Below are positions 3,668-25,558 of a DNA stretch of 64,000 nucleotides, in pieces (within the stretch, counting starts at the first letter, position 1; each line of letters begins with the position of its first letter). Position numbers and translations under genes: made by a program. Source of the stretch: Arthrobacter sp. APC 3897 (GTDB lineage Bacteria > Actinomycetota > Actinomycetes > Actinomycetales > Micrococcaceae); the NCBI RefSeq assembly GCF_030407495.1, contig NZ_JASDDG010000004.1:1-64000 (forward strand). Reading direction: 5' to 3'. The notes under the pieces are model-generated. The model was given only the letters and a program-made list of their open reading frames with translations, was not told the origin of the DNA and did no database searches.

Positions 3668-3674
3668 CGGCAGG

Positions 3675-4754: not shown

Positions 4755-4779
4755 GTTTTACGTTCCTCTTTCCATGGTT

Positions 4780-4805: not shown

Positions 4806-4972
4806 ATGGCAATTTCACGGCGGAGATTATTCGACTGCCCACCAGCAGTTTATCCGCGCCCGGCCGCCCGGTGTGCCTGAGCCTCCGGGACCGCGCGTTA
4901 ACTGCCAAGCCGCCCAGACTCCGTCCGTCCGCGGAAGGCGGAGGCCGGAATATGAGCGGCTTGGTAAGGCAG

Positions 4973-8541: not shown

Positions 8542-8547
8542 GTTCGC

Positions 8548-9663: not shown

Positions 9664-9667
9664 GGTA

Positions 9668-10966
9668 TTAGACCCCTTCTACCCGCAGGACGGATGTGAC
9701 TGAATTGATGATGTCCAGGCCCTTGATGGCCTCGACGGTGGCGGCCAGTGCAGCCTCGGATGCACGGTGCGTAACAAAACGCAGTTCGGCGGATGACGCC
9801 GTGCCGTCAGCATGGATGGTTTGGCGCATGGTCTCGATGGACACACCGTGCTCGGCGAAGACCCGCGCAACCGCAGCCAGGACGCCCGGCTGGTCGGTGA
9901 CCTGCAGGCCGATGCTGTAGCTGGTGGTGACCTTGGCGAACGGCAGTGCCGGCACGGATCCGGTGGGCGTTTCAGCACCGAGCGGTCCGCCCAGGACGAG
10001 TCGGCGGGCGGTGGAGACGACGTCGCCCATCACGGCCGACGCCGTGGGTGCGCCGCCGGCGCCCTGGCCGTAGAACATGAGTTCCCCGGCGTTTTCGGCT
10101 TCCACGAACACCGCGTTGAAGGCCCCGTGCACAGCGGCGAGAGGATGTGTGCGCGGCAGCAGCGTGGGATGTACGCGGACACTGACGCCGGGTTCGCCGT
10201 CGTTGTCCAGCTTTTCCGCGATGGCCAGCAGCTTGATGACAAAGCCGGCGTCCTTTGCCGCGGCAATGTCATCGGCCGTCACGGAAGAGATTCCCTCACA
10301 GGACACATTCGCCAGGTCAAAGTTGGTGTGGAAGGCCAGCGAGGCGAGGATGGCACCCTTGGCGGCGGCGTCGTGTCCTTCAACGTCTGCGGTGGGATCC
10401 GCTTCCGCGTAGCCCAGGCGCTGCGCCTCGGCCAGGGCATCGGCGAACTGGGCGCCGGTGCTGTCCATGGCGTCCAGGATGTAGTTGGTGGTGCCGTTGA
10501 CGATGCCCATGACCTTGGTGATGCGGTCACCGGAGAGGCTGTCGCGGATGGGGCGCAGGATGGGAATGGCTCCGGCGACGGCGGCTTCGTAAGCCAGCCG
10601 GACACCTGCTGCGTCGGCCTTTTCGAACAGTGCGGCTCCATCGGCGGCGAGCAGGGCCTTGTTGCCGGTGACCACTGAAGCGCCGTGGCCGATGGCGTGC
10701 AGCATCAGCGAGCGGGCCGGCTCCATGCCGCCCATCAGCTCGATGACAATATCCGCGTCTTCCACCAGCTTCTCGGCATCGGTGGTGAACAGGTTCCGCG
10801 GCAGCTCCGTGTCGCGCGGCGCGTCCGGATTGCGCACGGCAATGCCGGTCAGTTCCAAACGGGCTCCGGTGCGCGAGGCCAGGTCTTCGGCGTCGTCAAG
10901 AAGGATCCGGGCAACCTGCGAGCCAACGTTTCCGCAGCCCAGCAGGGCAACTTTCAGGGTCTTCAT
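9668..10966 (-). CDS. hom: Homoserine dehydrogenase with ACT domain
   Basis: Hom reduces aspartate semialdehyde to homoserine with NAD(P)H, the branch point toward Thr and Met. The 432-aa protein has the nucleotide-binding [10 protein letters not shown] at the N-terminus, the catalytic domain with [14 protein letters not shown] and [12 protein letters not shown], and a C-terminal ACT domain (from about residue 350, [20 protein letters not shown]). ACT domains in this family usually bind threonine for feedback inhibition. It sits between lysA (17 nt upstream) and thrC. Confidence 0.96.
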
Positions 10967-10983
10967 GGTGCGTGCCTTCTCCT

Positions 10984-12435
10984 TCAGCGATTCGGGCGGT
11001 CGGGCGCCGGTGTATCTACGTCCCGGGCCAGCAGGTCTTCTTCGGTTTCTCCGCGGATAATGAGCCGCGCGGCGCCGTTCGATACGGCAACCACGGGCGG
11101 ACGGGCAATGTAGTTGTAATTGCTGGACAGGGCCCAGCAGTACGCGCCCGTTCCCGGAACGGCCAGCAGATCGCCGTCGCCGGTGTCCGCCGGAAGATAG
11201 ACGTCCCGAACCACTATGTCCCCGCTCTCGCAGTGTTTGCCAACTACGCGTGACATAACGGCGTCATGTTCCGACGTCCGCGAGGCAAGCACGGCGGAAT
11301 AGTCAGCGTCGTAGAGCACGGGGCGGGCGTTGTCGCTCATGCCGCCGTCCACTGAAACGTAACGGCGTTCGGCGGTACCGCCGCCGGCAGTGTCCACCCG
11401 CACCGTCTTGACCGTCCCGGCGCGGTACAGGGTGAAGGTGGTGGGGCCAACGATGGCGCGGCCGGGCTCAATCGAGATCCGCGGAACGGCCAGTCCCAGC
11501 TCGGTGCAGGTGGAGCCGACGACGGCGGCCATCGCCTGCGCGATTTCGGCCGGCGGGCGCGGGGTGTCCGCTTCGGTATAGGCAATGCCGTAACCGCCGC
11601 CAAGGTCCAGCTCCGGCAGTTCGACGCCGTGGGCTGCCTTGATGTCCGCCAAAAAGCCCAGCAGCCGCTTGGCGGCCAGTTCAAAGCCTTCGGGTTCGAA
11701 GATCTGCGAGCCGATGTGGCAGTGCAGGCCCAGCAGGCGGATGCCCCTGGCGTCCAGCGCAGCGGCTACAGCGGCAGCGGCCGGCGATACGCCGCCGGCA
11801 GCCGGGTCCGGTGCCATGGAGAGGCCGAACTTCTGGTCCTCGTGGGCCGTGGCAATGAATTCATGCGTGTGCGCGTGCACACCGGGGGTTAGCCGCAGCA
11901 TGACGTTGGCCTGTTCCCCGCGGGACACCGCCAGGGCGTCCAAACGCTGCAGCTCGGCCATGCTGTCCACCACAATCCGCCCCAGGCCCATGTCCAGGGC
12001 GCGGATCAGCTCGGCGTCGGACTTGTTGTTGCCGTGCAGGCCGAGTTCGCTGCCGGGAATCCCGGCGCGGCGGGCCACGGCCAGCTCCCCGCCGGAGCAG
12101 GTGTCCAGCCGCAGACCTTCTTCCCGCACCCAGCGGGCCACCGCGGTGCAGAGGAACGCCTTGCCCGCATAGTAGACGTCCACTCCCCCGCACAGATCGG
12201 CAAAGGCAGCGTCAAAGGAATCCTTGAAATCGCGGGCACGGGCACGGAAGTCCGCTTCGGAGACTACGAACAGCGGGGTGCCGAACTCCTCGGCCAGTGC
12301 GGAGACGGACACGCCGGCCACCTGCAGTTCGCCGTGGGTGCTGCGGCTGACGTCGCGGGCCCACATCTGCGGGCGCAGTGCATCGGCGTCCTCCGGGTGG
12401 CTGAGCCATTCGGGGGCGAGCGGGGAAACAGTCAT
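10984..12435 (-). CDS. lysA: Diaminopimelate decarboxylase
   Basis: LysA decarboxylates meso-diaminopimelate to lysine, with PLP. The 483-aa protein is a fold-type III enzyme: the PLP lysine is in YYAGKAFLC near residue 90, the Gly-rich and His motifs are LHCHIGSQIF and DLGGGYGIAY, and CESGDIVV supplies the active-site Cys from the partner subunit of the dimer. It starts 3 nt after the argS stop, as in corynebacteria, where argS-lysA are co-transcribed and arginine and lysine both affect expression. Confidence 0.96.
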   Translation of the reverse strand: MTVSPLAPEWLSHPEDADALRPQMWARDVSRSTHGELQVAGVSVSALAEEFGTPLFVVSEADFRARARDFKDSFDAAFADLCGGVDVYYAGKAFLCTAVARWVREEGLRLDTCSGGELAVARRAGIPGSELGLHGNNKSDAELIRALDMGLGRIVVDSMAELQRLDALAVSRGEQANVMLRLTPGVHAHTHEFIATAHEDQKFGLSMAPDPAAGGVSPAAAAVAAALDARGIRLLGLHCHIGSQIFEPEGFELAAKRLLGFLADIKAAHGVELPELDLGGGYGIAYTEADTPRPPAEIAQAMAAVVGSTCTELGLAVPRISIEPGRAIVGPTTFTLYRAGTVKTVRVDTAGGGTAERRYVSVDGGMSDNARPVLYDADYSAVLASRTSEHDAVMSRVVGKHCESGDIVVRDVYLPADTGDGDLLAVPGTGAYCWALSSNYNYIARPPVVAVSNGAARLIIRGETEEDLLARDVDTPAPDRPNR

Positions 12436-12438
12436 GAA

Positions 12439-14088
12439 TTACATCCGTTCCGGAGCGGAGACTCCCAGCAGGCCCAGGCCGTTGGCCAGGACCTGGCGGG
12501 TGGCAAGGTTCAGCCACAGGCGGGTGCGGTTCACATCGGTGATTTCCTCGTCACCCTGGGGTGCGATGCGGCAGGCGTCGTACCAGCGGTGGTAGGTGCC
12601 GGCAATAACTTCCAGATGGCGGGCCACGCGGTGCGGTTCACGGAACGCGCTGGCCTGCGCGACGACGCCGGGGAACTGTCCCAGCGCAGCCAGCAGTTCG
12701 CCCTCGGTGGGGTGCGTCAGCAGGGACGCATCGAAGGCCGAGTCGTCTACGCCGGCGGCCTCGGCATTGCGGGCCAGGGCGTAGGTGCGGGCGTGGGCGT
12801 ACTGGACGTAGAACACCGGATTCTCGTTGCTGCGCTTGGTCAGCAGGTCCAGATCAATGTCAATGTTGGAGTCGGCGGAGAAGCGGGCCAGCGTGTAGCG
12901 GGCCGCGTCCACGCCCACGGCGTCCACCAGGTCCTCAAGGGTAACCACGGTGCCGTTGCGCTTGGACATGCGCACGGGCTTGCCGTCCTTGACCAGGTTC
13001 ACCATCTGGCCGATCAGCACCTCAACGCACTCCGGGTCATGGCCCAGAGCGGCGGCAGCGGCTTTGAGCCGGGCCACGTAGCCGTGGTGGTCGGCGCCGA
13101 GCATATAGAAGTTCAGGTCGAAGCCGCGGTCGCGCTTGTTCTGGATGTAGGCGATGTCTCCGGCGATGTAAGCGGCGTTGCCGTCGGACTTGATGACTAC
13201 GCGGTCCTTGTCATCACCGAACTCGGAGGAGTTCAGCCACCAGGCGCCGTCCTTCTCATACAGGTTCCCCGAACCCTTGAGCTGCTCCAGCAGCTTGTCC
13301 ACCTGGCCGTTTTCATGCAGGGAATCTTCATGGAAGAAGACGTCAAAGTCCACGCCGAAGTTATGCAGGGATTCTTTGATGTCGGCGAACATAAAGTCGA
13401 CGCCGGCTGCGCGGAAGTGTTCCTGGGCTTCGGCGTCAGGCAGTTCCATAATGTCCGGTTCCACCGCCAGGATGCGGTTGGCAATGTCTTCAATGTATCC
13501 GCCGGCGTAGCCGTCCTCGGGAGCGGCCTCGCCCTTGGCTGAGGCCAGCAGGGACCGGGCAAAGCGGTCAATCTGCGCGCCGTGGTCATTGAAGTAGTAC
13601 TCGCGGGTGACTTCGGCGCCCTGCGACTGGAAGATTCGGGCCAGGGCGTCGCCGACGGCGGCCCAGCGGGTTCCGCCCAGGTGGATGGGTCCGGTGGGGT
13701 TCGCGGAAACAAACTCGAGGTTGATCCGGGTGCCCTTGAGGATCTCCGAGGTGCCGTAGGACTCACCGGCATCCACAATGGTCTTGACCAGCTCGCCGGC
13801 GGCACCGGCGTCGAGCGTAATGTTCAGGAAGCCGGGTCCGGCAATGTCCACCTTGGCAACGCCGTCGATCTTTTCAAGGCGGCCCTTGAGAATCTCCGCG
13901 AACTGGCGCGGGTTCATGCCGGCCTGCTTGGAGAGCTGCAGCGCGATGTTGGTGGCCCAGTCACCGTGGTCGCGGTTCTTCGGCCGCTCCACGCGCACCT
14001 CCCGGGGCACGTCGATGCTGAAATCACCGGCATCGATGGCGTCTTGGAGGCAGGCAGTTACGGCGGAGGAAAGTTCTTCAGGAGTCAC
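12439..14088 (-). CDS. argS: Arginyl-tRNA synthetase
   Basis: ArgS charges tRNA-Arg in the cytoplasm. The 549-aa class I synthetase has an N-terminal Add-1 tRNA-binding domain, the HIGH-like motif in PTGPIHLGG and the KMSKS-like motif in VRMSKRNGT. The C-terminal anticodon-binding helices include the [19 protein letters not shown] segment. The start is GTG at 14088 with an AGGA-rich upstream sequence. It leads the argS-lysA-hom-thrC-thrB run. Confidence 0.97.
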
Positions 14089-14275
14089 CGGTTAAGCATA
14101 GCCTCCGGGCAGGTGCCGGTCCGCGAACTGTGACGGCGCCCGCTCACAGTCATCCAGCCCCGCGGCCGGGACGGGTCCGGAGGGGACGGCAGCACCCGCT
14201 GCTCAGGCGGGGCACAGGCAAGGCACATCCGAATACGTTGTAATGGATAGGGATCCCGCCTCCAAGGAGAGAATA

Positions 14276-14713
14276 ATGACCCCCACACGCAAGACCCTGC
14301 TGTTCGCCGCCGCATCAATGACGCTGGCCTCCACTGCCTGCGCCGGCACAGCGAACGACGGCGCTTCCGCCGCGGAAGAGTCTCCGGCTGCGGAGTCGCC
14401 GGTTCGTACCGGCAGCTACGGGGACGGAACGTACTCCGCCGCCGGAAGTTACATCCCGCCGTCCAACCAGACCGAAGAAGTGGATGTGACGCTGACGCTG
14501 GAAGGCAACGTTGTCACCTCCCTGGACGTTCAAACGTCCGGCAACAACCCCACCTCCAAGCAGTATCAGCGCGAATTCACCTCCGGCATCGAGTCACAGG
14601 TGGTCGGCAAGAAGCTTGATGAGCTGAATGTGGACAAGGTTGCCGGCTCGTCCCTGACCAGCTCCGGATTCAACAAGGCCCTGGACGCCATCCGGATGGA
14701 AGCCGCGAGCTGA
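14276..14713 (+). CDS. FMN-binding domain lipoprotein, predicted flavinylated electron carrier
   Basis: The 145-aa protein has a signal peptide ending in LASTAC (Cys22 as the lipidation site), a Ser/Ala/Glu-rich linker, and a C-terminal FMN-binding domain (about 48-145) of the type found in NqrC/RnfG. In that family ApbE attaches FMN through a phosphoester to the last Thr of an SGAT motif. Here the matching segment is VDKVAGSSLTSSG, so the acceptor would be Ser126. The ATG at 14276 has AAGGAGAG just upstream. apbE follows after 7 nt and an NqrB/RnfD-like reductase after that, so this is probably the extracytoplasmic carrier of the module. Confidence 0.8.
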   Translation: MTPTRKTLLFAAASMTLASTACAGTANDGASAAEESPAAESPVRTGSYGDGTYSAAGSYIPPSNQTEEVDVTLTLEGNVVTSLDVQTSGNNPTSKQYQREFTSGIESQVVGKKLDELNVDKVAGSSLTSSGFNKALDAIRMEAAS

Positions 14714-14720
14714 CCTTTCC

Positions 14721-15587
14721 ATGCCGGATTTCAGCTTCGAGGCCATTGGCACCGCCTGGACCGTGAGCACCGCCGCCCCGCTGACGGTCCAGGAGCGGGC
14801 CGCCCTCGCAGAGGCGGTGGAGTCCTATGACCGGACTTACTCACGTTTCCGGCAGGACTCGGCCATCGCACCGCTGGCCGCAGCCCCGGGGACCGTGGAC
14901 CTTCCGGTCACCGCTGCACCGCTGCTGAGTCTCTTCGACACCCTCCACCGGCTCAGCGGCGGCGCCGTCAATCCCCTGGTCGGGTCGTCGCTGGAGAAGC
15001 TCGGCTACGACGCGGCGTACTCGTTTGCCTCCGCAGGCCCGTCTCCGGCACCGGACTGGGCGGCTTCGGCGTCCTGGCAGGCGCTTGGGGACCGAACCGT
15101 GCTGAACACCTCAGTGCCGGTGACCTTCGACATCGGCGCCGCGGGAAAGGGACAGCTGGTTGACCTGGTCTTCGAGCTGCTGCACGCGTCCGGACACCGG
15201 GAGCTGACGGTGGACGCCGGTTCCGACCTGCGGCACAGCGGCCCCCGCCCGCTGCGGGTGGCCCTGGAACACCCGTATGACACCACGCGGGCCGTGGGTG
15301 TGCTTCCGCTGCACAACCGGGCGCTGTGTGCCTCGGCGTCCAACCGCCGGCAATGGGGAGACGGACTGCACCATATTGTTGATGCAGGGACCGGCCGTCC
15401 CGTGGAGACGGTGGCAGCCGCCTGGGTGCTGGCAGATGACGCCATGACCGCCGACGGGCTGGCCACCGCCCTGTTTTTCACCGACCCCGGCACGCTCGCC
15501 GAAGAATTCGCCTTTGACTATGTGCGGATGTTTTCGGACGGGCGGGCCACTTTCTCAGATGCCATGGCTGGAGTTCTGTTTTCATGA
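14721..15587 (+). CDS. apbE: FAD:protein FMN transferase (ApbE)
   Basis: ApbE transfers the FMN part of FAD to a Thr or Ser of a target protein, with Mg2+. The 288-aa protein shows the family blocks in order: FDIGAAGKGQLVD (about residue 135), VDAGSDLRHSG, HHIVDAGTGRPV, and DAMTADGLATALF with the metal-binding acidic residues. No signal peptide or lipobox is seen, so it is probably a cytoplasmic form or is exported by an unrecognised route. It lies between the FMN-binding lipoprotein, its likely substrate, and a membrane reductase whose start overlaps its stop (ATGA). Confidence 0.88.
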   Translation: MPDFSFEAIGTAWTVSTAAPLTVQERAALAEAVESYDRTYSRFRQDSAIAPLAAAPGTVDLPVTAAPLLSLFDTLHRLSGGAVNPLVGSSLEKLGYDAAYSFASAGPSPAPDWAASASWQALGDRTVLNTSVPVTFDIGAAGKGQLVDLVFELLHASGHRELTVDAGSDLRHSGPRPLRVALEHPYDTTRAVGVLPLHNRALCASASNRRQWGDGLHHIVDAGTGRPVETVAAAWVLADDAMTADGLATALFFTDPGTLAEEFAFDYVRMFSDGRATFSDAMAGVLFS

Positions 15588-17125
15588 GTCTTTCCCTGTC
15601 CGCCACCTCCCGCCGGCTGGACGCTTTCGCCGGCCGCTGGACGATGTACCGGCTGACCGTTGTCCTGCTGCTGGTCATGACGGCGTGGTCCTTTGCGCTC
15701 TCCGTTGCCGGACAGCTGTTCTACACTCCGGCCGAACTCGCGGCCACGGCCGCCACCGCCGTTGTCTCCTCATTGGTGGCCAGCCGCGTCATGGGGCTGC
15801 TGTTCCGCACCCGGCCGCAGACCGACTCTTCGCTGATTACCGGTTTGCTTCTCTTCTTCCTGTTCTGGCCCTCCACCGAAGGAGGCCAGCTCCTGACCGT
15901 GGCGCTCGCGGCCGGGGCTGCCACGGCGTCCAAGTACCTGCTGGTGTGGCGCGGCCGGCACATCTTCAATCCCGCGGCCTTCGGCGCAGCTCTGCTGGCC
16001 GTCACCGGCCTGAACAGCGCCGTGTGGTGGGTGGCGGCACCGCTGATCCTGGTGGTTGTCCTGCCCGCTGCCGCGCTGATTCTTTACCGCAACCGGCTGC
16101 TGCCCATGGCCGGAGTGTTCCTGCTGGCCTCGGGGACAATCATCACGGCGCGGTTCCTGTCCGGCGGGGAACCGCTGACGACGGCGCTGGCCACCCTGTT
16201 TGCGTCCTACCCGGTGCTGTTCTTCGCCGGATTCATGCTGTCCGAGCCGCTGACCCTGCCGCCCAGGCATATCCAGCGCCTGCTGGAGGCCGCCGTCGTC
16301 GGCGTCCTGTTTGCCGTACCGCTAAACCTGGGTCCGGTTTATATGTCCCCTGAACTGGCGCTGCTCGCCGGGAACCTGCTGGCCTTTGCCTTGGCACCGC
16401 GTGCAGGAATCCGGCTGCGGCTGCGGGACAACCGCGCACTGACGCCCACGGCCCGGGAGCTGGTCTTTGAGCCGCTGCGGCCGCTGAAGTTCCGCCCGGG
16501 ACAGTATGTGGAGCTGAGCCTGCCCCATGCCAGCCCCGATGCCCGCGGCGCCCGCCGCATCTTCAGCCTCACCACGGCACCGGAAAAGCCGGAAACAGTG
16601 GCGGTGGGGCTGCGCGTCAGCGAACCGTCCAGCTCCTTCAAAGCCACCCTGATGAAGCTGAAGCCCGGTTCTGTGGTGACCGGAACGTCAGTGGCCGGGG
16701 ACTTCCTGCTCCCCCGCCGTCCCGGCGTTCCTGTGCTGCTGATAGCTTCCGGCATCGGAATCACTCCATTCATGAGCCAGCTGCGTTCGCTGGCCGCGCG
16801 CGGGCAGATCGGCAGGGGCACCAACGGATCCGACATCGTCCTGGTCTACGCGGCCTCTTCAACGGAGGAACTGGCCTATGCGGCGGAACTGCACGGCATG
16901 GGAATCCGCGTTTTGGCCTGCACTCCCACCGATCCGCAGATCAGCGGATGGACCTGGCTGGGACCCGGCCTGCCGGATGCACAGGCCCTGGGCCGCGCGG
17001 TTCCCGACGCCGCACGGCGTGCCGCCTACATCTCCGGTTCCCCCTCGGCAGTGGCTGAGGCACGTGCCGCAGTCCGCGGAGCCGGCGTCCGCACCGTGAA
17101 GACGGATGCCTTTCTGGGCTACTGA
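15584..17125 (+). CDS. NqrB/RnfD-like membrane domain fused to ferredoxin-NAD(P)+ reductase
   Basis: The 513-aa fusion has about eight membrane helices (residues 22-275), with HIFNPAAFGAAL and FMLSEPLTLPPR matching conserved NqrB/RnfD segments, then a cytoplasmic FNR module. In the FNR half, RRIFSLTTAP binds FAD, ASGIGITPFMSQL binds NAD(P), and KTDAFLGY is the usual C-terminus. The likely role is to pass electrons from cytoplasmic NAD(P)H across the membrane to the flavinylated lipoprotein encoded in the same operon. In RnfD the SGATPL segment carries covalent FMN; here the matching residues 193-198 read SGGEPL, so the acceptor Thr seems lost. The electron acceptor outside the cell is unknown. 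Confidence 0.8.
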   Translation: MSLSLSATSRRLDAFAGRWTMYRLTVVLLLVMTAWSFALSVAGQLFYTPAELAATAATAVVSSLVASRVMGLLFRTRPQTDSSLITGLLLFFLFWPSTEGGQLLTVALAAGAATASKYLLVWRGRHIFNPAAFGAALLAVTGLNSAVWWVAAPLILVVVLPAAALILYRNRLLPMAGVFLLASGTIITARFLSGGEPLTTALATLFASYPVLFFAGFMLSEPLTLPPRHIQRLLEAAVVGVLFAVPLNLGPVYMSPELALLAGNLLAFALAPRAGIRLRLRDNRALTPTARELVFEPLRPLKFRPGQYVELSLPHASPDARGARRIFSLTTAPEKPETVAVGLRVSEPSSSFKATLMKLKPGSVVTGTSVAGDFLLPRRPGVPVLLIASGIGITPFMSQLRSLAARGQIGRGTNGSDIVLVYAASSTEELAYAAELHGMGIRVLACTPTDPQISGWTWLGPGLPDAQALGRAVPDAARRAAYISGSPSAVAEARAAVRGAGVRTVKTDAFLGY

Positions 17126-17207: not shown

Positions 17208-17280
17208 GCCCTCGTAGCTCAGGGGATAGAGCGGTTGCCTCCGGAGCAACAGGCCGTAGGTTCGAATCCTATCGAGGGCA
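17208..17280 (+). tRNA. tRNA-Arg(CCG)
   Basis: The 73-nt sequence folds as a full cloverleaf. The acceptor arms are GCCCTCG and CGAGGGC, with discriminator A at 17280. The D arm is GCTC/GAGC. The anticodon stem GTTGC/GCAAC encloses CTCCGGA with anticodon CCG (17241-17243), which reads CGG. The T arm has GTTCGAAT-type loop sequence. CCA is not encoded. A strong terminator follows at once. Confidence 0.97.
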
Positions 17281-17293
17281 CTTTGAGACAGAA

Positions 17294-17323: not shown

Positions 17324-17542
17324 GCGTTCCGGGTTTCTGAGTTCCGGGTTCCTGCGTTCCGGCGATTTCCGCATTTCCCGGCGGCCCGCTGTTCATGGGC
17401 GCGCTGCCGCGTCCGGCTGACCCCTTGGTGGGGCGGGTCCAGGACGGGGATCAGACCACGTAGTAAAAATTCACCCGCCCCGCAAATAGTTACTCAAAAC
17501 CCTTGCGCAGAGCAGGCCGGCGGGCGGTATGGTGTGGCACAT

Positions 17543-17556
17543 ACCAACCGGTCGGT
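17543..17556. promoter_or_regulatory. TetR-type operator, copy 1 (tetR promoter)
   Basis: ACCAACCGGTCGGT is a 14-bp palindrome with one mismatch. Nearly the same sequence recurs at 19278-19291 and 25535-25548. It lies 68 bp upstream of the tetR start and just after a candidate -10, as expected for autorepression. Copies 1 and 2 also share the flank CAT before the motif. Confidence 0.75.
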
Positions 17557-17623
17557 TCCTCGATCTCGAGAAGCCGGGTCCGGGTGGCCGAATCCCGCTA
17601 CGAGAAACACGGAACACCGCCCC

Positions 17624-18220
17624 ATGAAAACCCTGAACATCAAAGAGGAACTCACCCGCGTTTCCGTGGACCTCTTCGCCACCCAAGGCTATGCCAAAAC
17701 GAGCGTCCAGCAGATTGTCGACGCCGCCGGAGTCACCAAGGGGGCGCTGTACCACTACTTCGATTCCAAGGATGATCTGCTTTTCGATATCTACGACCGC
17801 ATCCTGACCCTGCAGCACCGCAACCTGGAAGAAATTACGGCACGGAACCTTCCGGTGGAGGAGACCGTGCGGCTGGCGTGTGAAGACGTCCTCATCACCT
17901 CGATTGAGTGGATCCGCGAAGGCGCCGTCTTTTTCCGCTCCCAGCACATGCTCAGCCCCGACCGGATGGAAGAAGTAAAGAGACGGCGCCGCAGTTACAG
18001 CGAGGTCTTCGCTGCCCTGATCGTCCGCGGCCAAAACGAAGGCGTTTTCCGCAGCGACATTCCCACAGCTGTCCTCGTGGCCAACTTTTTCGCCAACCCG
18101 CACTATCTCTCGTACTGGTACCAGCCGCACGGCCCCCTGACCAAGCAGCAGGTGGCAAAACAACTGACCGATCTGTACCTCGCCGGGCTGCGGCCTGCTT
18201 CCCTCGAAGGATCCCCATGA
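17624..18220 (+). CDS. TetR/AcrR family transcriptional regulator
   Basis: The 198-aa repressor has an N-terminal TetR helix-turn-helix: SVQQIVDAAGVTKGALYHYF at about residues 27-46, then DSKDDLL. The C-terminal ligand domain has no obvious relatives readable by eye; its ends fit acyl-CoA- or fatty-acid-responsive TetR regulators. I chose the ATG at 17624 because the domain starts right after it; upstream in-frame sequence crosses the promoter and tRNA terminator. Its stop overlaps the next gene (ATGA), so regulator and quinone-reductase-like enzyme are one operon. Three matching palindromes near this gene, the transporter and fabG mark the probable regulon. Confidence 0.9.
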   Translation: MKTLNIKEELTRVSVDLFATQGYAKTSVQQIVDAAGVTKGALYHYFDSKDDLLFDIYDRILTLQHRNLEEITARNLPVEETVRLACEDVLITSIEWIREGAVFFRSQHMLSPDRMEEVKRRRRSYSEVFAALIVRGQNEGVFRSDIPTAVLVANFFANPHYLSYWYQPHGPLTKQQVAKQLTDLYLAGLRPASLEGSP

Positions 18221-19191
18221 AAGCCTGGAACGTCGTAACCCTTGCCGAGCCGCGTGAGGCCCTGCGCCTCACGGATCTGCCCTCCCCATCCGCTGCACCG
18301 GGGTCGCTGGTGCTGAAAACCCTCGCCGTGGCGCTGAATTTCCCCGATGTGCTGCTGTGCCGCGGGGAATACCAGGAAAAGCCGGAGCTGCCCTTCGTGC
18401 CGGGCATCGAACTCTGCGGCACCGTCACCGGAATCGGCGACGGAGTCAGCGGCTTTCAACTGGGCGACCGCGTCATTGCCACGCATCTGGGCGTGATGGC
18501 CGAGGAGGTGCAGGTTCCGGCTGCCACGGCATTTCCTGCTCCGGCATCCCTCTCCGACGCCGAAGCCGCCGCCCTGTGCATCGGCTACCAGACCGGCTAC
18601 TTTGGGCTGCACCGGCGGGCACGGATTGTCCCCGGCGAAACCCTGCTGGTCCATGCCGCAGCGGGCGGCGTGGGCACGGCAGCCGTGCAGCTGGGCAAAG
18701 CCGCCGGCGCCACCGTGATCGGCGTGGTGGGCAACGAAGCCAAACGCAGGGTTGCGGAAACGGCAGGCGCGGACATTGTCGTTAATCGCAGCACCGAGGA
18801 CTTTGTCCAAGTTGTCAACGAAGCAACCGGCGGCCGCGGAGCCGACGTCATCTACGATCCCGTGGGCGGCGAAACCTTTGACCGCTCCACCAAGTGCATC
18901 GCCTTCGAAGGACGCATTGTCATCGTCGGGTTTGCCGGCGGAACCCTGCAGACCGCCCGCATGAACCATGCCCTGGTCAAGAACTACTCGCTCCTGGGAC
19001 TGCACTGGGCGCTGTACACCAAGAAGGCACCGGAACTCGTTGCCGAGGTGCATGAACAGCTCACCCTTCTGGCGGACAAGGGGTTGATCCGTCCCGTGGT
19101 CACCGAAACCGCACCGTTTGCATCAGCCCCCGACGCCGTCCAGCGCCTGGGCGACGGCAAGACCGCAGGGCGGGTGGTGCTGACCCTGTAA
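18217..19191 (+). CDS. NADPH:quinone oxidoreductase-like MDR protein
   Basis: The 324-aa protein is a medium-chain reductase/dehydrogenase: FPDVLLCRGEYQ and PFVPGIELCGTV in the GroES-like domain, then the Rossmann motif HAAAGGVGTAAVQLG near residue 150 and YDPVGGETFD. The catalytic-zinc Cys/His set of alcohol dehydrogenases is not seen, so it belongs with the zinc-free quinone reductase/enoyl reductase group. These enzymes use NADPH to reduce quinones or alpha,beta-unsaturated carbonyl or acyl-CoA compounds. The neighbours (TetR, importer, and coregulated fabG/maoC) favour a role on an enoyl intermediate of an imported carboxylic acid; that is inference. Confidence 0.83.
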   Translation: MKAWNVVTLAEPREALRLTDLPSPSAAPGSLVLKTLAVALNFPDVLLCRGEYQEKPELPFVPGIELCGTVTGIGDGVSGFQLGDRVIATHLGVMAEEVQVPAATAFPAPASLSDAEAAALCIGYQTGYFGLHRRARIVPGETLLVHAAAGGVGTAAVQLGKAAGATVIGVVGNEAKRRVAETAGADIVVNRSTEDFVQVVNEATGGRGADVIYDPVGGETFDRSTKCIAFEGRIVIVGFAGGTLQTARMNHALVKNYSLLGLHWALYTKKAPELVAEVHEQLTLLADKGLIRPVVTETAPFASAPDAVQRLGDGKTAGRVVLTL

Positions 19192-19262
19192 CTGCACGCG
19201 CCAACGCGGCTCAGCCCGATCCGTTTCAACACAGGAAGCTTCAACGAGACAACGGAGTACTC

Positions 19263-20060
19263 ATGGAAGTTATACATACCGACCAGTCGGTTTTAGAACC
19301 GCCACGTCTGCGCTTCGCCGGTGTCAGTGTGCGGTTCGGCGGCCTGACAGCCCTGGACTCGGTGTCATTCGCTGTCCCGGCGGGCGCCGTCGTCGGCATT
19401 ATCGGACCCAACGGCGCCGGCAAGACGACGCTCTTCAACGTCATCTGCGGGTTCACCACGCAGGCATCAGGATCCCTGGAACTCGACGGTGAAGCGTTCC
19501 GGCCGCGGCGCCACCGGCTCACGCGTCAAGGTGTCGCCAGAACCCTCCAGGGCCTGGGCCTGTTTCCCGGTTTGACCGTCCTGGAAAACGTCATGCTCGG
19601 GCTGGAAAGCACCGCCCGGCACAACCCTGCGGAGGATGCCCTGGCCCTGCCCCGCTCCCGGCGCGGAGAGGCACTGCTGCGCGAGCGCGGACTCCGGAGC
19701 CTGGATGACCTCGGCATTGTGTCCTTTGCGGCCGCGCTGCCGGACACCCTCCCCTACGGCATCCGGAAGAAGGTAGCCCTCGCCCGCGCACTCGCAGGTG
19801 CTCCCCGCCTCCTGCTGCTGGATGAACCCGCCGGCGGACTGGCGCACGAGGACATCGATGAACTTGCCGCGATCATCCAGTCCGTTCCGGCAACCGGCTG
19901 TTCCGTGGTCCTGGTGGAACACCACGTTGACCTGGTCATGAACGTCTGCGAGCGCATTGCGGTCCTGGACTTCGGCAAGCTGATTGCCGAAGGCACCCCC
20001 GCGGAAATCGGTGCCAACCAAGCCGTCACTGATGCTTATCTGGGAGTTGAACCGGTATGA
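19263..20060 (+). CDS. livG: Branched-chain-type ABC transporter ATPase, LivG-like
   Basis: The 265-aa ATPase has Walker A GPNGAGKTT near residue 50, the LivG-type signature LPYGIRKKVALARAL and Walker B LLLLDEPAGGL. It powers a HAAT-family importer for branched-chain or aromatic amino acids, amides or similar acids. The ATG at 19263 has CGGAG about 8 nt upstream and is the only standard start before the conserved core; a GTG at 19329 would cut into the first strand. Codons 6-10 contain operator copy 2, so repressor binding would block the operon at its very start. The gene overlaps livF by four bases. Confidence 0.9.
   Translation: MEVIHTDQSVLEPPRLRFAGVSVRFGGLTALDSVSFAVPAGAVVGIIGPNGAGKTTLFNVICGFTTQASGSLELDGEAFRPRRHRLTRQGVARTLQGLGLFPGLTVLENVMLGLESTARHNPAEDALALPRSRRGEALLRERGLRSLDDLGIVSFAAALPDTLPYGIRKKVALARALAGAPRLLLLDEPAGGLAHEDIDELAAIIQSVPATGCSVVLVEHHVDLVMNVCERIAVLDFGKLIAEGTPAEIGANQAVTDAYLGVEPV
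19278..19291. promoter_or_regulatory. TetR-type operator, copy 2 (inside the livG start)
   Basis: ACCGACCAGTCGGT is a 14-bp palindrome with one mismatch, matching the sites at 17543 and 25535. It lies 15-28 bp downstream of the livG ATG, within codons 6-10, and directly after TATACA (19271-19276). It could act as a roadblock just after the start, or as a promoter-overlapping site if transcription begins here and translation starts further on. Confidence 0.72.
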
Positions 20061-20773
20061 GCGGACTCCTGGTGATGGAATCAGTCAGTGCCGGCTACGG
20101 CCCGGTTCCGGTCCTGCACGGCGTCAGCCTCAGTGTGGCGGCAGGCAGCATCACCGCCGTCGTCGGCGCCAACGGTGCGGGCAAAACCACCCTGCTGCGC
20201 ACGATCATCGGTCAGCTGCAACCGGCCGCGGGATACATCAGTTTCGACGGCGCTGCCCTGGCCGGCACCAAGGTGGAAAACATGGTGCGCCGCGGCATCG
20301 CACTCGTACCGGAGGGCCGCGGCGTCATCACCGAACTGACAGTGGAGGAAAACCTGCGCCTGGGCGGCTTGTGGCGCCGGGACCGTGCCGCAGCGGCAAC
20401 TCTGCTGGCGCGCATGTACGAACTGTTTGAGCCGCTGGCCCGGCGCCGCAGGGCCCCCGGGCATCAGCTCTCCGGCGGTGAACGCCAGATGCTCGCCCTC
20501 GGCCGCGCCCTCATGGCCAATCCGCGGCTGCTGTTGCTCGATGAACCCTCGCTCGGCCTGGCTCCGCGCATCACCGCCCAGATTCTGGGCCTGCTGCGCA
20601 CCCTGTGCGACGACACCGGCCTGACCGTCCTGCTGATCGAGCAGAACGTCCGCAGCGCCCTTTCCGTGGCCGACGACGGCGTGGTCCTCAACCTCGGCTC
20701 CGTCGTCGCTGCCCGCTCCGCTGCCGACCTGGCTGCGGACACCGACCTGCGCCACACCTACCTGGGGTTCTGA
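20057..20773 (+). CDS. livF: Branched-chain-type ABC transporter ATPase, LivF-like
   Basis: The second ATPase of the importer (238 aa) has Walker A GANGAGKTTLLRTI, the ABC signature LSGGERQMLALGRAL and Walker B LLLLDEPSLGL. EGRGVITELTVEENL is typical of LivF. It pairs with LivG as a heterodimer under the membrane subunits. It overlaps livG by ATGA and is followed 1 nt later by the permease gene, so the operon is tightly coupled. Confidence 0.93.
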   Translation: MSGLLVMESVSAGYGPVPVLHGVSLSVAAGSITAVVGANGAGKTTLLRTIIGQLQPAAGYISFDGAALAGTKVENMVRRGIALVPEGRGVITELTVEENLRLGGLWRRDRAAAATLLARMYELFEPLARRRRAPGHQLSGGERQMLALGRALMANPRLLLLDEPSLGLAPRITAQILGLLRTLCDDTGLTVLLIEQNVRSALSVADDGVVLNLGSVVAARSAADLAADTDLRHTYLGF

Positions 20774-20774
20774 C

Positions 20775-21653
20775 ATGGACAGATTTCTCTTCCTCACCGT
20801 CGACGGTCTGGCCCGCGGTGCCGTACTGGCCGCCTTCGCGCTTTCACTGGTCATCATCTGGCGCGCCGCCCGCATCGTGAACTTCGCCCAGGGAGCGATG
20901 GCCGTGGCCACCACGTACATCGCCTTCACCGTCACCAGCGCCACCGGCAACTACTGGCTGGGGCTGGCGTCCGCAGTCGTCGCCGGGCTGGTGCTTGGCG
21001 CCCTGGTGGAACGGACCGTGATGCGGTTTGTGGGAAACACCAATCCCTTGAACTCGGTGATTGCCGGGCTGGGCCTGCTGCTGGTGATACAGGCTGCCCT
21101 GGGCATGATCTTCGGCAACGGTTACCGGGCCATGGCCACACCGTTCAGCTCCACCCCGATTTCCGTCGGCGGCGTCAGCGCCGTCTCCCCCTACGATCTG
21201 TTCATCTTCATCTGCGTAGGACTGATGGTGGTTGGCCTTGCCCTGCTCTTCACGAAAACCTCCCTGGGGCTGCGGCTGCGGGCCTCGGCCTTTGCCCCGG
21301 ATCTGGCCCGGCTGCTGGGCGTGCGCTCCTCCCGCATGCTGACCCTGGGATGGGCCCTGTCCTCGGCCGTGGGCGCCCTGGCCGCACTGCTGATCATCCC
21401 CACGGAGCTGGGGCTGAACCCGCATGCCGTGGACACCGTCTTCGTCTACGCCTTCACCGTTGCCGTGGTGGGCGGACTCGACTCCGCCGGCGGTGCGGTT
21501 GCGGGCGGGCTGGCCGTGGGCGTGGTGCTCAGCTGGGTCAGCGGCTATCTGGGTGCCACCCTGACTCCCATCGCGGTGCTGGTCCTGCTGCTGGCAGTGC
21601 TGCTGCTCCGCCCCGCGGGACTGTTTTCGATGACGAAGGAGCGCACGGCATGA
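20775..21653 (+). CDS. livH: Branched-chain-type ABC permease, LivH-like
   Basis: The 292-aa integral membrane protein has about eight hydrophobic helices. Early IVNFAQGAM is the LivH signature, and GLRLRASAFAPDLARLLGV is the cytoplasmic EAA-like loop that meets the ATPase. The last helices are followed by LLLRPAGLF, the usual LivH end. It forms the channel with LivM. Its stop overlaps the livM start. Confidence 0.92.
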   Translation: MDRFLFLTVDGLARGAVLAAFALSLVIIWRAARIVNFAQGAMAVATTYIAFTVTSATGNYWLGLASAVVAGLVLGALVERTVMRFVGNTNPLNSVIAGLGLLLVIQAALGMIFGNGYRAMATPFSSTPISVGGVSAVSPYDLFIFICVGLMVVGLALLFTKTSLGLRLRASAFAPDLARLLGVRSSRMLTLGWALSSAVGALAALLIIPTELGLNPHAVDTVFVYAFTVAVVGGLDSAGGAVAGGLAVGVVLSWVSGYLGATLTPIAVLVLLLAVLLLRPAGLFSMTKERTA

Positions 21654-22831
21654 GACCGCTGACACCCCTGGTTTCCCTGCTGCTGGCTGCCGCCGCGGCG
21701 GCGGCACTGATCGGACTGACGTTCGTCGTCGAACCCTTCCGGTCCTATCAATTGGCCACCGCGTGCGCGTACCTGTGCGCCGTGGCCGGGCTGACCCTCC
21801 TGACCGGAGCCGGCGGGCAGCTCTCCCTGGGGCAGGCGGCGCTCATGGCCGCCGGCGCCTACAGCTACGCCCTCAGCGCCAACGCACTCGCCGGGGCCGG
21901 AGTGGAAGGCGCCCTCCTGCTGCTGGTGCCGCTCGGCGCCTCCATCCTGGGCGCCTCCATCCTGGGCGTGGTCATCGGATGCGCCGCCGGACGGCTGCAC
22001 GGGCCGTACCTCGCCGGCTTCACCCTTGCCCTGGTGGTGGCCATACCTGCGGTCACAAGCACGTTCTCCGCCGTTCTGGGCGGAGACCAGGGCCTGTGGA
22101 TCACAGTGGAGAAGCGTCCGACGGCGCTGCGCGGCACCGTCAGCAACGAGCAGTGGCAGGCATGGCTGGCCATCATCTGCGCCGTCGCCGTGATGGTGGT
22201 GCTGAATAACCTGCTGCGCGGACGGTTTGGCCGCCAGCTGCGGGCCGTGCGCGACAACGACGCCGCTGCTTCCCTGTCCGGTGTCAACGCGGCCCGCACC
22301 AAGATCATCTCCTTTACGGTCAGTGCCGCCGCGGCGGGGCTGGGCGGAGGCCTGCTCGCCTACGTCACCCAAAGCGCCAGCCCCGGGGCCTACTCGCTGG
22401 TGCTGTCCCTCTATCTGCTGATGGCAGCGGTCATTGGCGGCATCGGCTCGCTCACCGGGGCGGTCTGGGGCGCTCTGATCATGGTGTTCCTGCCCTACGC
22501 GGTCAATACGTTCACTGCCAATCTGCCGGTCTCCGCCGACGTCGCCGCCCGGCTGGACGGCAACCTCGCCGTAGCGGTGTTCGGCACCATCCTCGTGCTG
22601 GTCATCCTCCTCGCCCCGCGGGGCATCCAGGGGCTGATCACGGCCGCCGGGCGGCGGTTCCGGGCCCGTTTCCCGCCCGGACAAAGCCCTTCCAACCCTG
22701 CCTCCGCCGTCGTACCCGTTCCGCAGTCCCGCCCATCAGCAGAAACTCCCTCATCAGGAACACAAGCTCCTGCCACAGAAACAGGCACTCCCCCTTCAGG
22801 AACACTGTCCACCACGAAAGGTCAACGATGA
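21650..22831 (+). CDS. livM: Branched-chain-type ABC permease, LivM-like, with Pro/Ser/Thr-rich tail
   Basis: The 393-aa permease has about nine to ten helices, LTGAGGQLSLGQAALMAAGAY near residue 45 as the LivM signature, and AVRDNDAAASLSGVN as the coupling loop. A 15-bp tandem duplication (21935-21964) encodes GASIL twice. After LAPRGIQGL the chain goes on for about 60 residues with a Pro/Ser/Thr-rich tail that most LivM proteins lack; it should be cytoplasmic. The ATG at 21650 overlaps the livH stop. The livK start overlaps its own stop. Confidence 0.9.
   Translation: MRPLTPLVSLLLAAAAAAALIGLTFVVEPFRSYQLATACAYLCAVAGLTLLTGAGGQLSLGQAALMAAGAYSYALSANALAGAGVEGALLLLVPLGASILGASILGVVIGCAAGRLHGPYLAGFTLALVVAIPAVTSTFSAVLGGDQGLWITVEKRPTALRGTVSNEQWQAWLAIICAVAVMVVLNNLLRGRFGRQLRAVRDNDAAASLSGVNAARTKIISFTVSAAAAGLGGGLLAYVTQSASPGAYSLVLSLYLLMAAVIGGIGSLTGAVWGALIMVFLPYAVNTFTANLPVSADVAARLDGNLAVAVFGTILVLVILLAPRGIQGLITAAGRRFRARFPPGQSPSNPASAVVPVPQSRPSAETPSSGTQAPATETGTPPSGTLSTTKGQR
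21935..21964 (+). repeat. 15-bp tandem duplication in livM
   Basis: Two identical 15-bp copies, 21935-21949 and 21950-21964, add five residues within a predicted membrane helix. The reading frame is kept. Confidence 0.85.
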
Positions 22832-24165
22832 TTGTTTCCCAGCACCCCGGCCCTGTCCGCAGCACTCCTGCCCAGAGGCGCCCCGCCGCAAACAAGCGCA
22901 GACACAGCGTCCTCGCCGCAGCGGTCACGGCGGCGGCCCTGACCCTGGCGGCCTGCGGATCCTCCGGAGAAGGTACGTCAACGGCAGCTGAAGACGTTCC
23001 GGGGATCACCGACAGCACGGTCACAGTGGGAACGCACCAGCCCCTGACCGGGCCGGCGGCAGCAGGATATGCCTCGATTTCACCGGCCACCAAGGCCTAC
23101 TTCGACCACGTCAACGCCAACGGCGGAATCCACGGCCGCACCATTGAGTACACGGTCAAGGATGACGGCTACAACCCCGCCAATACCCAGAGCGTGGTGC
23201 GCGAAATGGTGCTCCAGGACGAAGTGTTCGCGGTCGTCGGCGGCCTCGGCACGCCGCCGCACAGCTCAGTGCTGGACTTCCTGAATGACAACGAGGTCCC
23301 GGATCTGTTTGTTGCCTCGGGAAGCCCCACCTGGAACCAGCCCGAAAACTATCCCTACACCTACGGTTTCATGCAGGACTATGACACCGAGGCCAAGGGC
23401 CTGGCTGCCTATGTGCAGGAAGAGTTTCCGGACGCCACGTACTGCCTTTTCGGCCAGGACGACGACTTCGGAGCGGACTTCAAGACCGGGCTTGAGTCGG
23501 CGCTGGGCAGTGACTCGCTGGCCAGCACCCAGGTGTATTCCACGACGAACACTGACGTGGCAGCGCAGATCAGTGACCTGCAGGCCGCCGGCTGCGATGT
23601 CAACTTCCTGGCGTCCATCAACGGCTTCACCGCACAGGCCATCGGAACGGCGGCCAAGCTGGGCTATATGCCGAGGTGGGCGGCGTCCTCTGCCGGCGGG
23701 GATTACAACACGCTGTCCAGTTACCTCGGCGAGAACACCGACGCACTCCTGGAGGGTTTCATCAGTTCGAACTACCTTCCGGCCAACACCGACACGGACG
23801 ATGAGTGGACGGCCAAGTTCAAGGAGATCAACGAGGAATACAATCCGGGAGCTGCATTTGACGGAAACACCATTTTCGGCATGTCCATTGGCTATCTCTT
23901 CGCCGAAGCCCTTCATGAGGCGGGCGAGAACCCCACAAGGGAGTCGCTGCTGGAGGCACTGGAGTCCGGCGATGTACAGGGCAACGGACATGTGCCGCTG
24001 GGCTTCAGCGCAGACAGCCATGCCGGTTACACCGGAGGCATGATCACCCTGGTTTCGGACGGCGTGCAGGCCTACACGGGATCGCCGTACTCCGCTGACG
24101 GCGATTCGGTCAGCGCCTACACCGAAGACCGTCCGGCAATGCCGGAGAACGGTATTCCGCAGTAG
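22828..24165 (+). CDS. livK: Branched-chain-type ABC substrate-binding lipoprotein, LivK-like
   Basis: The 445-aa protein has a lipoprotein signal with LTLAAC (Cys43) after an unusually long, Arg-rich N-terminal region; an internal start could shorten this. The mature part is a periplasmic-binding-protein type 1 fold: VTVGTHQPLTGPAAAGY, FDHVNANGGIHGRTI and YNPANTQSVVREMV. It gives the importer its specificity, which cannot be read from sequence alone. It is the last gene of the operon, unlike the usual order where the binding protein comes first, and is followed by a strong terminator. Confidence 0.9.
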   Translation: MIVSQHPGPVRSTPAQRRPAANKRRHSVLAAAVTAAALTLAACGSSGEGTSTAAEDVPGITDSTVTVGTHQPLTGPAAAGYASISPATKAYFDHVNANGGIHGRTIEYTVKDDGYNPANTQSVVREMVLQDEVFAVVGGLGTPPHSSVLDFLNDNEVPDLFVASGSPTWNQPENYPYTYGFMQDYDTEAKGLAAYVQEEFPDATYCLFGQDDDFGADFKTGLESALGSDSLASTQVYSTTNTDVAAQISDLQAAGCDVNFLASINGFTAQAIGTAAKLGYMPRWAASSAGGDYNTLSSYLGENTDALLEGFISSNYLPANTDTDDEWTAKFKEINEEYNPGAAFDGNTIFGMSIGYLFAEALHEAGENPTRESLLEALESGDVQGNGHVPLGFSADSHAGYTGGMITLVSDGVQAYTGSPYSADGDSVSAYTEDRPAMPENGIPQ

Positions 24166-24186
24166 GCCCCTCCGGGCGGCTGCATC

Positions 24187-24229
24187 AAAAAAGGGACGGA
24201 TCCGCCGGCGGCGGGTCCGTCCCTTTCCT
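24187..24229. terminator. Bidirectional terminator between livK and maoC
   Basis: AAGGGACGGA (24191-24200) pairs with TCCGTCCCTT (24216-24225), with additional GC pairing inside. A-rich sequence on one side and T-rich on the other allow it to serve both convergent operons; on the minus strand six T residues follow. Confidence 0.85.
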
Positions 24230-24257
24230 GTCCGTCCCGTTCAGCGTCCTGCCGGGC

Positions 24258-24710
24258 TCAAGCCAGCACGTACAGCGTGATCCAGTCGGCAACCACGGCC
24301 GGCTTGTCCGCACCCTCCAGTTCAATGGTGATGCCGGTGACAACACGGAGGCCCTGGACTGTGCTCTGAACCTTCGAGAGCTCGGAGACCACCCGGACCC
24401 GGCTGTTCACCGGTACGGGGTGCGGAAACCGTACGCGGTCCAGACCGTAATTGATGCCCATGACGGTTCCGTCGAGGCTCACGCGCTCCGCGGTCAGCGC
24501 GGGCAGCAGTGAGAGGACCAGGAAACCGTGGGCAATGGTGGCGCCGAACGGGCCGGCGGCAGCCCGTTCAGGCTCGGTGTGGATCCACTGATGATCATCC
24601 GTGGCATCCGCGAAACGGTTGATCCGGTCCTGGTCGATCGTGATCCACTCGCTCGTTTCGCGCTGTCCCACCGCGGCTTCAAGTTCTTGGACGGAGGCAT
24701 AGTGTGTCAT
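24258..24710 (-). CDS. MaoC-family hot-dog dehydratase (R-specific enoyl-CoA hydratase-like)
   Basis: The 150-aa hot-dog protein has the hydratase-2 motif: FADATDDHQWIHTEPERAA places the catalytic Asp and His, followed by GPFGATIAHGFLVLSLL. Members hydrate trans-2-enoyl-CoA to (R)-3-hydroxyacyl-CoA or act as related dehydratases. The ATG at 24710 is 2 nt after the fabG stop, so the two are co-translated. With a 3-hydroxyacyl reductase next to it, the pair could interconvert enoyl-, hydroxyacyl- and ketoacyl-thioesters. The fabG promoter upstream carries operator copy 3. Confidence 0.87.
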   Translation of the reverse strand: MTHYASVQELEAAVGQRETSEWITIDQDRINRFADATDDHQWIHTEPERAAAGPFGATIAHGFLVLSLLPALTAERVSLDGTVMGINYGLDRVRFPHPVPVNSRVRVVSELSKVQSTVQGLRVVTGITIELEGADKPAVVADWITLYVLA

Positions 24711-24712
24711 TG

Positions 24713-25486
24713 CTAGGCCTTCGGTCCGCCGGCTACGTACAGTACCTGGCCGGAAACAAAGGATGCTTCCTCCCGAATGAAGAACGATGCCGCAGCGGCA
24801 ATGTCAGCCGGAGTCCCTGCACGGCCCACCGGGATTTCCGCCACCGCATGCTTCACGAAGTCGTCAAACGGCACTCCGACCCGCTCCGCCGTCGCCCGGG
24901 TCATGTCGGTTTCAATGAAGCCCGGGGCAATGGCATTGACCGTGACGTTGTACCGGCCCAGCTCGATGGCGAGTGTTTTGGTGAACCCCTGCAGCCCCGC
25001 TTTGGCAGCGGCGTAGTTGGCCTGGCCGCGGTTGCCCAGGGCAGAGGTGCTGGAAAGGTTGACGATACGCCCCCATTTCTCCTGCACCTGGTGCACCTGG
25101 ACGGCACGGCTCATCAGGAAGGCGCCGCGCAGGTGAACGCCCATGACGGCATCCCAGTCCGTGTCCGTCATCTTGAACAACAGGTTGTCCCGCAGGATGC
25201 CGGCGTTGTTGACCAGGATGGCGGGGGCGCCCAGTTCGTCCGCGATCCGCGCTACTGCCGTTTCGACTGCCCCCGCGTCCGAGACATCCGCTCCCACCCC
25301 CACCGCTTTTCCGCCGGAATAGTTGATGGCTTCGACTGTGGCGGCGGTGTCCTCCTCCCGCAGGTCGATCACACCGACCCGGTGGCCGTCGGCCGCCAGA
25401 CGGGCGGCAACGGCGGCGCCGATGCCCCGCGCTGCCCCGGTGACAATGGCGGTCCGCTGAAAAGGAGGTGCCTGGGCTTCGGTCAT
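24713..25486 (-). CDS. SDR-family 3-oxoacyl-(ACP/CoA) reductase, FabG-like
   Basis: The 257-aa classical SDR has the Rossmann motif VTGAARGIGAAVA, NNAGILRDN, the catalytic SSTSALGNRGQANYAAAKAG (Ser, Tyr, Lys) and IAPGFIETDMTRA. It reduces 3-ketoacyl thioesters with NAD(P)H, or runs in the oxidative direction on (R)-3-hydroxyacyl-CoA. The ATG at 25486 follows GAGGAGA. It is unlikely to be the main fatty-acid-synthesis FabG, because it is paired with maoC and has a TetR-type operator in its promoter, which suggests a catabolic role tied to the divergent-convergent liv operon. Confidence 0.88.
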   Translation of the reverse strand: MTEAQAPPFQRTAIVTGAARGIGAAVAARLAADGHRVGVIDLREEDTAATVEAINYSGGKAVGVGADVSDAGAVETAVARIADELGAPAILVNNAGILRDNLLFKMTDTDWDAVMGVHLRGAFLMSRAVQVHQVQEKWGRIVNLSSTSALGNRGQANYAAAKAGLQGFTKTLAIELGRYNVTVNAIAPGFIETDMTRATAERVGVPFDDFVKHAVAEIPVGRAGTPADIAAAASFFIREEASFVSGQVLYVAGGPKA

Positions 25487-25529
25487 CTTTTCTCCTCGAA
25501 GAGTGAGCTGGGTCATACTGTCACGGCTG

Positions 25530-25558
25530 AGCGTACCGACCGGGCGGTACGTAAGCAA
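25530..25558 (-). promoter_or_regulatory. fabG-maoC promoter with operator in its spacer
   Basis: On the minus strand TTGCTT (25553-25558), a 17-bp spacer and TACGCT (25530-25535) form a good housekeeping promoter. The 14-bp palindrome occupies most of the spacer and touches the -10, the classical arrangement for repression. The start codon is about 44 bp further on. Confidence 0.6.
25535..25548. promoter_or_regulatory. TetR-type operator, copy 3 (fabG promoter)
   Basis: ACCGACCGGGCGGT matches the sites at 17543 and 19278, and the symmetry extends outward (CGTACC and GGTACG). Only one central base breaks the dyad. Confidence 0.75.

Follow-up and report, generated by a model that had tools for sequence, protein, structure and literature searches.

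Does one TetR-type regulator govern both a carboxylic acid importer and a reductase-hydratase pair encoded beside it? The question is raised by a stretch of 64,000 nucleotides (nt), here called the window, from Arthrobacter sp. APC 3897 (assembly GCF_030407495.1, contig NZ_JASDDG010000004.1, positions 1 to 64,000, forward strand). A tetR gene, a liv-type ATP-binding cassette (ABC) importer and a convergent fabG-maoC pair are each accompanied there by a near-identical palindrome:

S1, 17543-17556, ACCAACCGGTCGGT, putative tetR operator, ending 67 nt before tetR
S2, 19278-19291, ACCGACCAGTCGGT, putative operator within livG, 15 nt past the start codon
S3, 25535-25548, ACCGACCGGGCGGT, putative fabG operator, 48 nt before fabG

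A preliminary description of the window had listed these three sites, and our window scan recovered all of them at these coordinates, each one mismatch away from the perfect dyad ACCGACCGGTCGGT. We propose, as the probable reading, that the PfmR-like TetR protein encoded from 17624 represses the tetR operon and fabG-maoC through the three palindromes. Binding and repression appear highly likely from the conservation of the sites and the kinship of the regulator. The genes concerned are the following:

tetR, 17624-18220, + strand, PfmR/KstR2-like TetR repressor of 198 amino acids
qor, 18217-19191, + strand, medium-chain reductase resembling quinone/enoyl reductases, PIG3-related
livG, 19263-20060, + strand, ABC ATPase, in which S2 forms codons 6-10
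livF, 20057-20773, + strand, ABC ATPase
livH, 20775-21653, + strand, permease
livM, 21650-22831, + strand, permease
livK, 22828-24165, + strand, substrate-binding protein (Pfam Peripla_BP_6)
maoC, 24258-24710, - strand, hydratase close to Rv0130
fabG, 24713-25486, - strand, 3-ketoacyl reductase of the short-chain dehydrogenase/reductase (SDR) type

Conservation of the palindromes and of their regulator

Chance occurrence was gauged with the reversed motif pattern, with shuffled sequences (n=100) and with 104 permuted palindromes having the same half-site letters. Shuffles gave a mean of 0.48 places with at most two mismatches in 64 kb, and none of the 100 reached the five places observed; besides the three sites, these include two places with two mismatches (6933 and 31254), both in long coding-like frames. 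Among the permuted palindromes, at one mismatch or fewer, 101 had no match in the window, two had one and one had two, against three for the real motif. It is conservation, and not such counts, that decides in favor of the sites.

Twenty-nine Arthrobacter genomes were compared. Of these, 21 encode a close TetR (72-95% identity, the window's own protein aside), and the best match in the other eight was 23-29% identical. The livK gene, scored at a threshold of E 1e-30, occurs in the same 21 genomes, and the same eight have neither gene. S1 is kept before tetR in all 21 TetR-bearing genomes, always with one mismatch. S2 is kept at livG in all 21 as well (19 with one mismatch, one perfect, one with two), and S3 before fabG in 20 (17 with one mismatch, three with two); in the sole genome without S3, G248, no maoC-fabG is visible in the locus. 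A MaoC of at least 66% identity is found in 20 of the 21. Taken together, the 21 loci hold 58 matches with at most one mismatch, versus at most two for any of the 104 permuted palindromes. Named carriers of the module include A. gandavensis, A. yangruifuii and A. zhaoxinii. Among 245 genomes of the family, 17 of them of the genus, a TetR match at E 1e-20 or better was found outside the genus in five genomes only, at 26-30% identity.

The proposal in the preliminary description that a single TetR links tetR, liv and fabG-maoC is thus supported by the conservation of S1 to S3 and by the co-occurrence of tetR and livK in 21 of 29 genomes. Its inclusion of the quinone-reductase-like gene needs qualifying: qor was found in eight of the 21 loci and is no constant member, and in the remaining 13 livG comes straight after tetR, with S2 retained.

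Two of the sites lie at promoters that we predict by reading the sequence:

putative tetR promoter, 17503-17533, + strand, TTGCGC (17503-17508) and TATGGT (17528-17533), 19-nt spacer
putative fabG promoter, 25530-25558, - strand, TTGCTT (25558-25553) and TACGCT (25535-25530), 17-nt spacer

S1 starts 9 nt past the -10-like box in the window, and 7-11 nt past it across all 21 genomes. This box reads TATGGT, TAGGGT or TATGAT, and TTGCG precedes it, separated by 19 nt, a long spacer, in 20 of the 21 genomes and by 16 nt in G172. S3 fills the spacer of the putative fabG promoter, between a -35-like and a -10-like box; the TTGC hexamer of the former lies 17 nt away from the latter in 17 genomes and 18 nt away in three, out of 20, and the -10-like box reads TACCCT, TACGCT, TATTGT or TATCGT. 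A TetR bound at S1 would cover the point where the tetR transcript begins, and one bound at S3 would sit between the -35 and -10 boxes of fabG; both are classical repression sites.

The regulator itself scores 62.6 bits for Pfam TetR_N (cut-off 24) and 74.2 for TetR_C_24 (cut-off 26.4), and its model, with nine helices, fits a TetR family repressor. Its nearest solved relatives include PfmR, KstR2 and AibR. Identity to TTHB023, the PfmR of Thermus, is 26% (68 bits), with 3dcf and KstR2 slightly higher. KstR2 of Rhodococcus and Mycobacterium is close in both sequence and fold, but it controls cholesterol genes and its operator differs from the window palindrome. By analogy with the relatives KstR2, PfmR, MbdR and AibR, a coenzyme A (CoA) thioester is a plausible effector.

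A wider scan of named genomes yielded 343 candidate loci, of which the best 80 were retained: eight from Arthrobacter, two from Salinibacterium, one from an unclassified metagenome-assembled genome, all with a TetR of 68-86% identity, and 69 distant ones at 43-49%. At least some of the eight Arthrobacter loci are the same contigs as in the genus comparison, and gene calls in the distant loci were made mechanically. The helix GVTKGA(L/M)YHYF is common to all 25 aligned clade members. Within a stretch running from 250 bp upstream of the tetR match start to 40 bp downstream of it, 46 of the 69 distant loci have the palindrome with at most one mismatch, which further favors the single regulator proposed earlier, and four more have it with two; the reversed pattern gave none of 69 below four mismatches. 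Acyl-CoA dehydrogenase genes likewise follow such sites in 18 of the 80 loci, and phosphotransferase genes in eight; Pfam bore out these gene kinds for examples taken from L087 and L113. One such site in Amycolatopsis marina (L113) has fabG and maoC immediately ahead of it. On a Streptomyces plasmid, a fragmentary TetR match with genes for an acyl-CoA dehydrogenase, a phosphotransferase and an SDR next to it agrees with this picture. A Nonomuraea record that was also consulted came unannotated.

Two kinds of locus outside Arthrobacter carry the importer. In Labedaea (L102), livGFHMK lies beside tetR and ACCGTCCGGTCGGT stands 16 nt upstream of the start codon of livG, which is the ordinary arrangement. 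In Salinibacterium (L068 and L070), tetR, qor and liv stand together, and ACCAACTGGTCGGT precedes an SDR gene located before tetR. Both Salinibacterium loci also contain a weaker palindrome with three mismatches (L068 7404-7417, L070 7417-7430), in L068 immediately upstream of a thioesterase gene. In 44 of the 80 loci (for example L074 9012-9794), a related open frame diverges from tetR and has the operator in common with it; this may be a mechanical frame.

The importer, its enzymes and their substrate

Two ATPases, two permeases and a Peripla_BP_6 receptor make this a liv-type importer. The NCBIfam cut-offs of LivG, LivF, LivH and LivM were all missed, so that by those models they are not amino-acid proteins. 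By sequence, LivK matches 4n03 best (about 20% identity), a structure whose title is fatty acid ABC transporter substrate-binding protein; in the comparison of folds, 3lop ranked first and 4n03 fourth, with aromatic-acid and amino-acid receptors close. With the receptors of fatty- and aromatic-acid liv-type importers (4n03, 4f8j), LivK shares the fold and the Pfam receptor family, at 18-21% identity.

Another reading is that the system is a branched-chain amino acid importer whose regulator answers a branched-chain acyl-CoA such as isovaleryl-CoA. We regard this as unlikely. LivK Ala289 aligns with Asp226 of the amino-acid receptor Atu2422 (3ip5), a residue which we take to hold the ligand's amino group; the closest match by sequence is a fatty-acid receptor; and neither a branched-chain keto-acid dehydrogenase nor a transaminase was seen among the cluster genes. 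Under the proposal favored here, the importer would take up a carboxylic acid without an alpha-amino group.

The substrates of FabG and of Rv0130-type MaoC hydratases are (R)-3-hydroxyacyl thioesters, and enoyl reductases are found in the QOR family. FabG and MaoC, with QOR where present, would process the 3-hydroxy, 3-keto and enoyl-CoA forms of the imported acid. Uptake followed by CoA-level breakdown, as first suggested for these genes, stands in outline, but breakdown is just one possible direction, because FabG and such hydratases use (R)-3-hydroxyacyl substrates.

Upstream of the cluster, at 14243-17125 of the window, are FMN-binding (flavin mononucleotide), ApbE-like and reductase-like membrane genes, named by eye and apparently unrelated to the regulon. 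A tRNA-Arg (ccg) gene at 17208-17281 lies downstream of the FMN-binding and ApbE-like genes.

The palindrome within livG

S2 had first been described as standing at the livG start. It does lie at livG, but within the reading frame, and its offset of 15 nt from the start codon is the same in all 21 genomes (ATG in 20, TTG in G172). The assigned start agrees with the starts of tblastn alignments, and a conserved purine-rich stretch is found upstream of S2.

A site inside a gene may be preserved for the protein. Across the 21 genomes, LivG has 120 invariant residues (Met and Trp excluded), of which 15 keep a single codon. All three invariant residues within S2 do so (codons ACC, GAC and TCG), versus 12 of 117 elsewhere in LivG. 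The chance of three of three by simple counting is 0.0016 if codons are kept at random, a value that serves as a guide only, since the genomes are related. Read at the codon level, S2 is conserved as DNA.

Consequently we give little credit to the possibility that S2 was preserved for its peptide (T-D-Q/R-S), with S1 and S3 as the only operators. S2 does lie wholly within the reading frame, and the peptide TDRSV of a gltB-like gene yields chance motif matches in several genomes. In that gltB-like frame, however, the codons for the same peptide vary between genomes, whereas the invariant residues of S2 in livG hold one codon in 21 of 21. Moreover, the LivG proteins of Salinibacterium and Labedaea are without the S2 peptide, and within Arthrobacter both subclades share the 15-nt position while residue 8 alternates between Q and R inside the palindrome.

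As an operator, S2 may act by an elongation block, by a loop or by control of an unseen promoter. TetR bound there would most likely add a second block on the importer, by stopping elongation or by looping with S1, and such a block would let the repressor gene stay at low expression while the importer is off. A more far-reaching version, which we put forward tentatively, is that of a roadblock: the operator, which all 21 genomes with the system keep within an N-terminal extension of LivG, would double as codons 6-10 and as a switch separating repressor from importer synthesis in one operon. The system as a whole would serve specifically to bring in (R)-3-hydroxy acids or other carboxylic acids of the non-amino kind.

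Look-alike sites, known systems and meaning of the proposed regulon

Several observations weigh against the regulon as proposed. In the genome-wide motif scan that the preliminary description had called for, run by mismatch count, the motif has six places with at most one mismatch versus five for the reversed pattern, and 29 with at most two versus 47. The genome-wide count is therefore not enriched, and a raw motif count was rejected as proof, since it does not exceed the reversed control. The 21 conserving genomes belong to a single genus and hence are not independent. Nineteen of the 69 distant loci are without a site (at most two mismatches) before tetR, and the two Salinibacterium loci with tetR-qor-liv are without the palindrome in livG. 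A general consensus promoter scan listed neither the putative tetR nor the putative fabG promoter, and before S2 no -10/-35 pair stood out, by consensus scan or by eye. Receptors for aromatic acids and for amino acids are similar to LivK as well, and the LivK model is of middling confidence (mean predicted local distance difference test score, pLDDT, 75). Lastly, no acyl-CoA ligase, acyl-CoA dehydrogenase or thiolase was seen among the window cluster genes; with the first two not seen there, the first steps should be encoded elsewhere.

What the genome-wide scan added was one more promoter copy, before paaA, where another TetR is encoded. The three one-mismatch places outside the window are C5:33293 (the paaA promoter), C6:43144 and C12:94477; the last two are in coding-like frames, that of C6:43144 being gltB-like by eye. 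Since C12:94477 has the very letters of S3, the 14-mer alone makes no operator. By a mechanical frame test, 18 of the remaining 25 of the 29 places with at most two mismatches are in long coding-like frames, and the other seven (in L015, L020, L181, L182, L184, L185 and L186) were left undecided. From these 25 places we claim no further regulon member and rule none out. Regions L019-L021 were each read at a single site. Among the genus matches listed, 16 further places were inspected: nine are the same gltB-like codons, three are in another shared coding gene, one is the paaA of G246 and three are in open frames. Another locus of the genome, L187 (G000:C56:11000-17000), encodes a second TetR paralogue, 27% identical, at 3582-4133, and a CoA-transferase-like frame near it (by eye) bears a two-mismatch match around 2067.

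The paa cluster (L017, G000:C5:24000-43000) comprises paaZ-, paaI-, paaK- and paaABCDE-like genes at 181-13314, named by eye; its PaaA and TetR were confirmed by Pfam. This TetR, at C5:26374, is 26% identical to that of the window, with another recognition helix. The site upstream of paaA is ACCGAACGGTCGGT in this genome, one mismatch from the window motif, and AACGAACGGTCGGT or a near form is found there in all 22 genomes examined, including all eight without the window TetR. At a threshold of E 1e-40, paaA is present in 28 of the 29 genomes, six of which are outside the 22. In G223, tetR, liv and the full set of S1 to S3 are present, yet paaA gave no match. From the paaA site in the eight genomes without the window TetR, and from G223, it follows that the two circuits are separate; in this genome, G246 and G253, where a single mismatch separates the paaA site from the motif, cross-binding is possible.

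It is thus very improbable that S1 to S3 belong to the phenylacetate repressor (a PaaR-type TetR) of the same genome and that the cluster serves phenylacetate metabolism: the operators of Burkholderia cenocepacia PaaR do read ACCGACCGGTCGGT and, at paaH, ACCAACCGGTCGGTT, ACCGAACGGTCGGT does precede paaA, and the C5:26374 protein does share its Pfam C-terminal family with the window TetR, but the paaA site, mostly AACGAACGGTCGGT, is independent of the window TetR whereas S1 to S3 accompany it, G223 has the module and its sites without paaA, and the paa TetR is distant with a different recognition helix. The paaH operator is S1 plus its next base and, in the part of that account drawn upon here, the inverted repeat likewise lies between -35 and -10 (PMC9493321). 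This likeness concerns the operators; PaaR (BCAL0210) differs in controlling paa genes, a control not found for the window TetR, and paa here has its own TetR and another site consensus.

Among known systems, PfmR (TTHB023) of Thermus thermophilus HB8 comes nearest. According to the portions of the published accounts at hand, its operator is TACCGACCGNTNGGTN, its operon includes acyl-CoA dehydrogenase and phosphotransferase gene kinds, and the PfmR-type regulon has fabG, maoC, acyl-CoA dehydrogenases, a ligase and a phosphotransferase. By comparison of letters, the window sites, preceded by T and at most one mismatch from ACCGACCGGTCGGT, are near TACCGACCGNTNGGTN. In the window there are fabG and maoC; dehydrogenase and phosphotransferase appear only in distant relatives, the window cluster showing neither these nor a ligase. 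Conversely, those portions name no liv importer and no site within the frame of a first gene for Thermus. PA3973 of Pseudomonas was rejected as a model, its motif being different in the part of the source available. Literature searches, which went no further, found no paper on this regulon, importer or intragenic operator.

In the mechanism that we favor, a TetR dimer would bind the three near-identical palindromes and repress its own operon (tetR, here qor, and livGFHMK) together with the convergent fabG-maoC, and an acyl-CoA made from the imported acid would probably release it. This kind of system is already known; new here are this member with its importer and the unusual intragenic operator. 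The result is a regulator, an operator and a gene set for an uncharacterized acid-uptake route of Arthrobacter, open to testing, in a proposed regulon that is distinguished from the similar-looking paa circuit encoded alongside it in the genome. Several actinomycete orders show this pairing of one operator with a single clade of regulators, and S2 offers a natural example of an operator maintained within a reading frame.

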